This document shows positions 25,073-28,188 of a DNA stretch of 42,345 nt, in pieces; the stretch's first letter is position 1, and every line of letters starts with the position of its first letter. Location: assembly GCA_017448795.1 (NCBI GenBank), contig JAFSKV010000079.1:1-42345 (forward strand), given 5' to 3'. Below the pieces are notes generated by a model. It had not been told where the DNA came from and searched no databases. It was given only the letters and a program-made list of their open reading frames with translations. The position numbers and the translations under genes were made by a program. Origin of the DNA: Synergistaceae bacterium (GTDB taxonomy: Bacteria; Synergistota; Synergistia; Synergistales; Aminobacteriaceae).

Positions 25073-26206
25073 CTAGGAGCGCCTCACCTCGTCAATCACC
25101 TTCAGCCACTTTTCCGACCATTTCGCGAACGAGAAGCCTTCCTTGACTGTCTGATACGCGTTGTCAGAAAGTTTGTCCCTGAGTTCCCGGGACGTTATGA
25201 GCCTCTCCATGGCTTCCTCCAGCTCGCTCTGAACCGGGCTGATCATGAGTCCGTTGTAGCCGTCGATTATAGCGTTGGTTATCCCGCCTATGTTCGTAGC
25301 GATGACCGCGCACCCTGCCGCCATGGCCTCAAGGAGGGACAGCGAGATTGCCTCGTGCTTGATTGTCGGGATGACCGCGATGTGATACTTGCTGTGGAAA
25401 TTCACGCTGTCTTCCGCGCTGTAGGACGTGAATGTTACGTTGGGGAACTCTCCGAGCCTGCCGCGCATGTAGCCTTCATCCGGGCCTGTTCCTGCTACTG
25501 TGACGCTGAGTCCGGGATATTTGCGCAGGATGTTAGCCGCCGCGTCTGCGAATAGCCTTGTCCCCCTGTAACTCACTAGCCTTCTGGCAAACACGACTGA
25601 TATATTGCAGCTGTCTTTCTTAGGCTTGGAGCTTGGTATTTCTGAATAGTTAGGGATGCAGTGAAAGTTTTGCGAGATTGTTTTGACTTGTGTCCTGTAC
25701 CAGTTGATGAAGTTGTAATCCACGCAGACCAAGTTGTTGCTGTATGAATAGCGGCGTGTCTTGACGATAGCCCGGAGCGCGCATTTCAGGGCTTGGGCGT
25801 AATTCACCAGGGCGGGGGCTTTGCCGAAAACCGCATCATCCCACGCTACCCCGTGGTCAATGGATATTACACGCTTGAACCTGCTGGGGGTTATGATTAT
25901 GTCCGTCGCGAATATGAGGATGTCCTCTAAGTAATTTGCCCCCCCCCCCCCCTCGTCAGTATTTCGGCCTATCCAGTCGAGAAGCCCCCCGACCTTTCCG
26001 CCGCTTTTGACTCCTGCCACAGTGAACCCGCGGAAGCCTGCGGTGAAATTCTCCCTTGAGTGCTGGCAGACGACAACCTCATAGCCCGCTCCTGCGAGAA
26101 GCCCGCCCAAGTCAGCTATGTACTTTTCGAGGCCGCCGATAACCAGCTTCATGTTCTCATCTAGAAGGCGGGGGCAGATGATGAAGCACTTTACCTTTTT
26201 CGGCAA
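25073..26206 (-). CDS. GT4-type glycosyltransferase with in-frame G14 tract
   Basis: A 377-residue GT-B fold glycosyltransferase, probably acting in surface-glycan assembly. N-terminal GGLEKYIADLGGLLAGAGYEV is the acceptor-side Rossmann motif; the C-terminal half has VVFARRLVSYRGTRLFADA, VTVAGTGPDEGYM and HEAISLSLLEAMAAGCAVIATNIGG, the GT4 donor site with its EX7E-type motif. A run of 14 G (C14 at 25939-25952) encodes GGGG in a loop near residues 86-89; at this length the frame is continuous, so the gene is on, but loss or gain of one G would shift it. The TTG start at 26206 follows AGGAG and a TGATATAAT promoter 40 bases upstream. Donor and acceptor are unknown. Confidence 0.9.
   Translation of the reverse strand: MPKKVKCFIICPRLLDENMKLVIGGLEKYIADLGGLLAGAGYEVVVCQHSRENFTAGFRGFTVAGVKSGGKVGGLLDWIGRNTDEGGGGANYLEDILIFATDIIITPSRFKRVISIDHGVAWDDAVFGKAPALVNYAQALKCALRAIVKTRRYSYSNNLVCVDYNFINWYRTQVKTISQNFHCIPNYSEIPSSKPKKDSCNISVVFARRLVSYRGTRLFADAAANILRKYPGLSVTVAGTGPDEGYMRGRLGEFPNVTFTSYSAEDSVNFHSKYHIAVIPTIKHEAISLSLLEAMAAGCAVIATNIGGITNAIIDGYNGLMISPVQSELEEAMERLITSRELRDKLSDNAYQTVKEGFSFAKWSEKWLKVIDEVRRS
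25939..25952 (-). repeat. Homopolymeric G14 tract (C14 on plus strand) inside a glycosyltransferase
   Basis: Fourteen consecutive C on the plus strand, read as G14 in the coding direction. Long poly-G tracts in glycosyltransferase genes are classic slipped-strand phase-variation sites. The length given keeps the frame open. Confidence 0.85.
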
Positions 26207-26245
26207 AATAAAGCTCTCCTTTCTTCAATTGCTGGATTCGCTGGG

Positions 26246-27059: not shown

Positions 27060-27881
27060 CTAATACACGCCCAAATCGAACACGTAATCCTCGGCGTACT
27101 TTCCGTTGTTCACGAGGCGCGCGAATGTTGAGCCTGCTGTACTTGAGGCTATGAGGCACCTGCACCGGGCGAGGCACAGCATCTTCACGAGGTAGTCGAG
27201 GCCGAACTTGTACATGTTATCCGCGTGAAGCTGGCCTGCTATGTAGTCGTTGGGCGAGTAATTGCTGATGAGGTTTCTGTCTGTCGTGAATATGAGCGGG
27301 TCGTATCTCTGAGTGAAGTAATCGTGAATGTCAGCGTCTTCTGTAGCGAGGAAGATTTTGCGTCTGCGATGTCGAGGATGTATTTCTTGACGGGGACAAT
27401 GCCCATCATGTCATGAGTGGTTTTACCTAATTGGGTGGGGGGAATTACGCAAAGTCCATCCTGACAGCCGGACGTTCCTGCTCTGGTAGACCTCATCGAG
27501 CGTGTGGCTTGAGGGCTGCTCGAAGTAGTACTCCCATGCGTTGCGTGTTCCGCTGACGGGGGAGTCGATGTTGTACTGAGTCCTGTAGTTCTGCCAGTCT
27601 ATCACGGGGATGTAGCCGCCATGAATGAGTCTGTGGACGCTGCGGACGATGCCGAGGTACATTGAGAGGAGTCCTTCGGCGGTTCCGCTTGGGCGCAATA
27701 CGCAGAACCTGAGTCCTGGGTTGAGGGGGCCGAATGATTTATCATGCTGTCTCAAGTCCCAGTGGAAGATGATGTTGTTGATTTTGTCTGCGACTCCGCT
27801 GATCAGCTTGTGGCGATAAATCCGCAAGCCCAATGCCCGCTTCGCTTTCAAGAGTGATGCCGGTAGCAATTTGCGCGTCAA
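27060..27881 (-). pseudogene. Fucosyltransferase-like glycosyltransferase with two compensating frameshifts
   Basis: Read across three frames the stretch encodes about 273 residues. The first part (27881 to about 27440) contains GLRFCVLRPSGTAEGLLSMY and NAWEYYFEQPSSHTLDEVY; the middle frame holds QLGKTTHDMMGIVPVKKYILDIADA; the last part, back in the first frame, holds KIFLATEDADIHDYF, DYLVKMLCLARCRCLIAS and STAGSTFARLVNN. The order matches NodZ/fucosyltransferase-like enzymes. The frame breaks near a C6 run (27437-27442) as if one base were added, and near an A4 run (27356-27359) as if one were lost; net shift is zero. Either a real double mutation, sequencing or assembly errors, or hypervariation. 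The family is inferred from motif order only. Confidence 0.6.
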
Positions 27882-28155: not shown

Positions 28156-28188
28156 CTAGCCCCCCTTCTTCGTGACAGTCTCCGCTAG
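27928..28188 (+). CDS. Possible small protein, unknown function
   Basis: An 86-codon open frame with GC-rich third positions typical of this genome (many CTG, GTG, AGG). It contains FLVFMLYSRRGN and MLVVWNVQPV but no recognisable domain. No Shine-Dalgarno sequence precedes the ATG, and no promoter at the usual 40-base spacing. It could be a fragment of a lost gene or the antisense shadow of a minus-strand frame. Confidence 0.22.
   Translation: MCKPKTNVEAANGNRMVLRKPGDDFLVFMLYSRRGNANMRDIFGMQLLFSMLIPDGRERNRGQTMLVVWNVQPVSTLAPLLRDSLR

Follow-up and report, generated by a model that had tools for sequence, protein, structure and literature searches.

We found that a run of 14 guanines inside a glycosyltransferase gene is well supported, judged from its own sequence and that of its relatives, as a poly-G phase-variation locus, and that runs of this kind in its clade carry a strand-oriented DNA signal directly beside them. 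The run lies in a stretch of 42,345 nucleotides, in the following called the window, from a Synergistaceae-type MAG (G000, 2.54 Mb in 86 contigs, 98% complete). Taken as a whole, we consider it very probable that the locus switches at the level of translation and that its tract is a composite of homopolymer and signal. The switch itself would be of the kind already known from Campylobacter, Helicobacter and Neisseria, and what appears to be new is the conserved flank signal. The features of the locus, all on the reverse strand, are the following:

25073 to 26206, reverse strand: GT-B glycosyltransferase gene, 377 amino acids, TTG start, open at tract length 14
25939 to 25952, reverse strand: G14 homopolymer on the coding strand (C14 on the forward strand), within the GT-B gene
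25953 to 25971, reverse strand: 5' flank of the run, TAGGCCGAAATACTGACGA, a partial match to the TASGNAAWWTTAC...Gn signal
25927 to 25938, reverse strand: 3' flank of the run, CAAATTACTTAG, containing a stop at 25927 to 25929
26207 to 26224, reverse strand: AGAAAGGAGAGC..., a GGAG-type sequence resembling a ribosome binding site, upstream of the TTG start

The earlier note on this DNA had placed a G14 run inside a glycosyltransferase, and we found it at exactly this position within an intact open reading frame of 377 amino acids, where it encodes the four glycines that had been predicted (...NTDE-GGGG-ANYLED...). The frame is indeed open at length 14 and the other two frames reach stops 3 and about 26 codons downstream, the nearer one being the stop at 25927 to 25929. 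According to the frame analysis, a change of one or two bases in the length of the run, which lies 84 codons into the reading frame, would give a truncated product. The C-terminal half of the protein matches the Pfam families PF00534 (8.4e-25) and PF13692 (4e-22), and in a profile search against solved structures this domain was the only part matched, namely to group-1 glycosyltransferases. Of the neighbours that were scanned, those on one flank are WhiA-type, PGK and TIM genes, and those on the opposite flank are FapA, sigma-70, CheC and CheA-type genes. The closest ortholog, from genome G049 (58% identity), has no run at this place and is six residues shorter, which fits the proposed location of the glycines in a loop. 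It has instead a G10 run close to the enzyme's N-terminus, where it continues in frame from an upstream transferase, and a length comparison at the window tract is thus confined to this single close ortholog, tract-less there and with its G10 elsewhere in the gene.

The G14 run exceeds the length expected by chance. The window contains fourteen G/C runs of length 6, one of 7 and the one of 14. A 2.54-Mb sequence generated with an order-3 Markov model of the window contained 24 runs of at least 9, none of them longer than 11. G000 itself has 31 such runs, with lengths from 9 to 14 being represented 5, 4, 6, 9, 4 and 3 times, a peak at 11–12 and 16 of the 31 at 12–14. In each of 25 genomes of the genus between 0 and 33 runs of at least 10 were counted, and in 16 genomes from other families of the order 0 to 5, all of these counts being lower bounds as the search pattern misses part of the runs. 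A search of the GTDB collection for GTAATTCAC followed by nine Gs returned eight stretches, all of them from Synergistaceae or 'uncultured Fretibacterium' MAGs and several from goat rumen or abomasum; the same pattern matched no IMG/VR contig. By their Pfam matches the tract genes of G000 include capsule synthesis (PF05704), CotH, an EcoRI-type adenine methylase, a GDSL hydrolase, an aldo/keto reductase, a radical SAM/SPASM protein, two TPP enzymes, two DUF6625 proteins, two group-1 glycosyltransferases (one of them in the window) and one of group 2 (GT4 and GT2), MBOAT, SDR, a sugar epimerase, a permease and an LRR protein, the remaining ones being lipoprotein-like or without family. The paralogous lipoprotein-like proteins at L041, L042 and L045 carry their tracts just after the signal peptide; they also show weak Pfam matches to a pore-forming family (24–33 bits), which are probably distant or spurious.

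For the following comparisons we compiled 125 tracts from the fetched loci (runs of at least 9 that have 30 nt of sequence on either side, after removal of duplicates), 31 of them from G000, 25 from G021, 23 from G016, 20 from G004 and 26 from G047; the loci of G021, G016 and G004 were chosen among the matches listed, so these genomes have at least these numbers of tracts. The coding strand carries G in 93 of the 125 tracts and C in 12, and 20 are unclear. The frame was analyzed for 106 tracts from five genomes (G000 31, G021 25, G016 24, G004 20, G003 6) by taking the longest open half on each side of the run, a rule that can misjudge short or non-coding cases. It is open across 37 of them and, within G000, across 8 of 31. 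This is close to one third, as expected if the lengths drift freely. Between G000 and G047 the lengths of orthologous tracts differ in eight of the nine alignable pairs (12/13, 10/14, 12/9, 12/10, 14/13, 11/12, 10/11, 11/12 and 13/13), and in the 12/13 and 12/10 pairs the flanks are near-identical. The 13/13 pair is located inside a 2.3-kb stretch of 99.9% identity (L185/L187; G000:C36 and G047:C136), which would indicate either recent transfer or shared binning; other tract regions of the two genomes differ clearly more. Fast substitution in the flanks, suspected from one pair, was rejected as the nine pairs give 0.103 near the tracts and 0.158 elsewhere. Among the matches listed, tracts stand within about 10 bases of the contig start in G016:C18, G016:C77, G021:C23 and G003:C207, which looks as if the assembly broke at runs of mixed length.

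A history of gain and decay can be followed in the DUF6625 genes, where 13 stretches show six whole runs (8–12), three interrupted ones (GGGT+G7, GGGA+G6 and G6TG4) and three without a run, the last one (G051) being unaligned there. A similar form is found in the window itself, in a second glycosyltransferase-type gene:

27060 to 27881, reverse strand: decayed gene of glycosyltransferase type, spread over three frames and about 50 residues shorter than the G049 homologue
27433 to 27442, forward strand: interrupted (fossil) tract GGGTGGGGGG, 10 bases, with the tract-type flanks TTTTACCTAATT and AATTACGC

The fossil tract, which resembles the interrupted DUF6625 runs, carries its Gs on the non-coding strand of the decayed gene. 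In G049 the homologue of this gene is located directly upstream of the same glycosyltransferase and in frame with it. It reads as a decayed gene and not as one in the OFF state, since about 50 residues are also missing in comparison to the G049 homologue. This bears on the claim that two other repeat loci of the window read as OFF, which we could not uphold as no further G/C run above 7 is present; the likely candidates for these loci are the interrupted tract and the C6 at 28160 to 28165. The latter (G6 on the reverse strand) lies at the point where the frame of a small membrane-type ORF is broken, and it is too short for a contingency tract. The reading of the G14 run as a slipped-strand contingency site holds with respect to the tract, its frames, the genome-wide set and the lengths between species, and fails with respect to the two companions. 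Neither the genome-wide set nor the conserved DNA beside the tracts is mentioned in the note.

The bases 5' of the runs are alike in unrelated genes. They form a signal at the DNA level that adjoins the G run on its 5' side and is close to TACGTAAWWTTAC(GTA), with a consensus of about TASGTAAWWTTAC and the palindromic full form TACGTAAWWTTACGTA. Within the 24 nt 5' of the 125 tracts TACGTA was observed 36 times compared to 0.33 expected from the same loci. Most often TAC starts at position -7, in a second group at about -17 and never at -13 or -14, and when 75 tracts are aligned on TAC, 57 of them have a further T ten bases upstream of the one in TAC. As all three codon phases are used by TACGTA (12/14/8) and the signal precedes the Gs in 8 of the 12 C-coding as well as 55 of the 93 G-coding tracts, it belongs to the DNA strand bearing the Gs and not to the protein or the message. 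Of 7641 gene pairs without detected homology, 208 agree in at least 10 of the 14 nt adjoining the run, whereas positions -30 to -17 give six such pairs and shuffled flanks 5.75 on average. When a motif was trained on four genomes and, after removal of homologues of the test genome, used to separate the tracts of the fifth from random positions, the AUC was 0.905 for G000 and 0.975, 0.917, 0.859 and 0.899 for the others. In a separate comparison, 317 flanks of G5 to G7 runs gave an AUC of 0.518. In addition, TTAC 3–6 bases before G9 is common in the genus and near zero elsewhere in 185 genomes of the phylum with the exception of a few, counting overlapping matches at one tract repeatedly. Together these comparisons show, at the level of the DNA sequence, that a strand-oriented signal exists beside the tracts. 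It varies in strength, being below the 95% control quantile in 7 of the 31 G000 tracts and above the 99% quantile in only 8 of 31 when the stricter held-out motif is used. The window's own copy is a moderate match only: one motif places its flank among the highest-scoring 0.7% of control positions, the stricter motif only among the highest 10%.

TACGTA is not an avoided restriction site, as its observed/expected ratio is near 1 (rank 34–58 of 64 palindromes). A TTAC target of IS200/IS605 elements (Y1 HUH) was dismissed since the Y1 transposase is present in 15 of 43 genomes and absent from G000, G016, G021, G023 and G045, and a diversity-generating retroelement since RVT_1 occurs in 21 of 43 genomes and none was found in the tract-rich G016, G045 and G004. 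Both enzymes were also considered as the factor acting at the tracts and rejected, since over the 43 genomes neither the Y1 transposase nor reverse transcriptase presence matches the tract number.

The same palindrome is also found at promoters. We searched 43 genomes for the full form with up to two mismatches and chose 20 places among the matches listed. Apart from the tracts it occupies two conserved intergenic positions, 289–325 bp before an SLH-domain porin gene in at least ten loci, G000 included, and 91–113 bp before groES in at least six:

Palindrome promoter loci: L274 (G000:C8:31746), L277, L281 to L283, L285 to L289; L278 to L280, L290, L291, L293

In both places a -10-like TAATAT or TATCAT follows about 23 bases after its end, and GTAA..TTA belongs to the blocks with the highest conservation. 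The porin site is also present in tract-poor species, e.g. G012, G006 and G046. This recurrence is the best sign that the palindrome may be a protein-binding site independent of the tracts.

From these results a model of the switch can be proposed. If the G14 run slipped by one or two bases in replication, the frame would change after about codon 85 and translation would terminate 3 or about 26 codons later. The glycosyltransferase, which presumably acts on surface glycans, a role that we infer, would in this way switch randomly between ON (11, 14 or 17 Gs) and OFF. Slippage in living cells is something we infer from this architecture. The window tract would then be one of about 30 in its genome, within a phasome that extends across a rumen-type Synergistaceae genus. 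MutS is present in 43 of 43 genomes (in 37 above the family cut-off), which rules out its loss as the cause of the many tracts; because it is present in all of them, the tracts must mutate with MutS around. We tentatively suggest, as the leading possibility, that the signal is the putative site of a clade-specific DNA-binding protein, also acting at the groES and SLH-porin promoters, which would tune or raise slippage in cells that retain MutS. Bound 5' of the Gs, such a protein would sit just behind the run for a polymerase copying the G strand, and a stall at this place could favour slippage or the loop could be hidden from repair. The more specific proposal that a Synergistaceae-specific protein at TACGTAAWWTTACGTA, shared with groES and the SLH porin, jointly sets the slippage of about 30 surface genes through polymerase stalling or MutS shielding is more doubtful.

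We regard it as rather unlikely that the window tract is an ordinary poly-G contingency locus whose flank signal plays no part in switching but has another origin, such as local mutation bias or the spread of sites from tract to tract by template switching between G runs. Some observations fit such an origin. Over the nine G000/G047 pairs the density of indel events within 20 columns of a tract is five times that elsewhere (8/310 compared to 25/4948 columns), a count in which one alignment (L046/L239) runs out on the 3' side and its end gap falls into the near class. Among pairs of unrelated genes, sharing of at least 10 of 14 flank bases is also about twice as frequent within a genome (72/1505) as across genomes (136/6136). 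We know of no need for a cis signal in poly-G switching elsewhere, and the phasomes of Campylobacter and Neisseria are not known to carry flank signals. Against this, the signal is palindromic, keeps its inner spacing (57/75) and follows the G strand, and it is conserved at two promoters without tracts, which bias alone would not produce.

Still less probable is an internal promoter of the porA type, in which the signal, the G run as a length-dependent spacer and a YAnnA behind it would make the switching partly transcriptional. Here the evidence consists of a -10-like hexamer whose frequency peaks exactly at +1 downstream of the run (at least four matches to TATAAT in 26 of 125, controls 3.6%), a correlation of r = -0.31 between run length and the TAC-to-run distance (n = 75) and the position of the signal just 5' of the groES and SLH porin promoters. 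However, the runs are located anywhere in genes and are antisense in 12 of 125, with runs of typical length the -10-like box stands a few bases too close to TTAC, and the base at +1 is mostly C (62/125). Switching through a promoter spacer as in porA, opc or NadA was rejected for the window gene, as its run lies 84 codons into the reading frame and the promoter-like features behind the runs are weak. Very improbable is also that a run moves together with its flanks as a small mobile insertion, even if up to 14 of 14 flank bases are common to unrelated genes: the run-less DUF6625 orthologs align straight through, the run stands in place of a GGAGAAC-type sequence and adds about 5 nt net, and a duplicated target was not seen, so that this series offers no clean empty site in a relative, and the 18 nt gained by the window gene compared to G049 lie in a divergent stretch where clean borders were not seen. 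Finally, homopolymer lengths in a MAG assembly are error-prone and some tracts stand at contig starts, but an assembly or calling artefact or an inert glycine linker is the least probable of all in view of 31 tracts of 9–14 with a length peak at 11–12 in one genome, of position and flanks conserved in other species' MAGs and of two thirds of the tracts being out of frame.

The preferred reading, a translational switch with a signal at its tract, has its closest relatives in known phasomes. Simple-repeat switches are held to depend on the repeat and on general repair alone. In Campylobacter and Helicobacter, with H. canadensis as example, runs of about 9–16 G are found in methyltransferase, epimerase and other genes, dozens per genome, with ON and OFF frames mixed as in the Synergistaceae set; the portions of that report available to us describe no shared flank, whereas the Synergistaceae runs are preceded by the strand-oriented palindromic signal (PMC2823697). 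The meningococcal phasome has similar poly-G/C tracts and switches more slowly than that of C. jejuni, which is attributed to mismatch repair, and a genome-wide flank signal is likewise not described in the accessible parts of the source (PMC4235727). C. jejuni is without mismatch repair according to the same excerpts (PMC4235727), in contrast to the MutS of the Synergistaceae genomes. The nearest case that we found of protein sites beside a repeat is the phase-variable nadA promoter, where, as far as the excerpted source goes, operators of NadR flank a TAAA tract (PMC2791445). Alike are the sites of a DNA-binding protein beside a variable repeat, the protein being only putative in our case; nadA differs as it is one promoter with tetranucleotide repeats and a transcriptional effect through spacing (PMC2791445), whereas the Synergistaceae tracts are homopolymers in many unrelated coding regions, with the site on the G strand whatever the direction of the gene. 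In the literature excerpts covered we found no report of phase variation in Synergistaceae or Fretibacterium and none of a shared flank signal at poly-G tracts. If the model is true, a conserved strand-oriented site would allow the cell to address its mutable loci via one protein, and large poly-G phasomes would extend to an uncultured gut phylum.

Some of the tracts touch on DNA modification. The EcoRI-type methylase gene (Pfam) at L029 has its tract near the 3' end, and three of the 12 C-coding tracts (L098, L131 and L235) look homologous and belong, as judged by eye, to HsdS-type specificity genes. From these tracts methylation may be switched as well. In the window and the loci of five genomes the hexamer palindromes GATATC, AAGCTT, GACGTC and CTCGAG are almost missing in at least one of the genomes, which points to restriction pressure.
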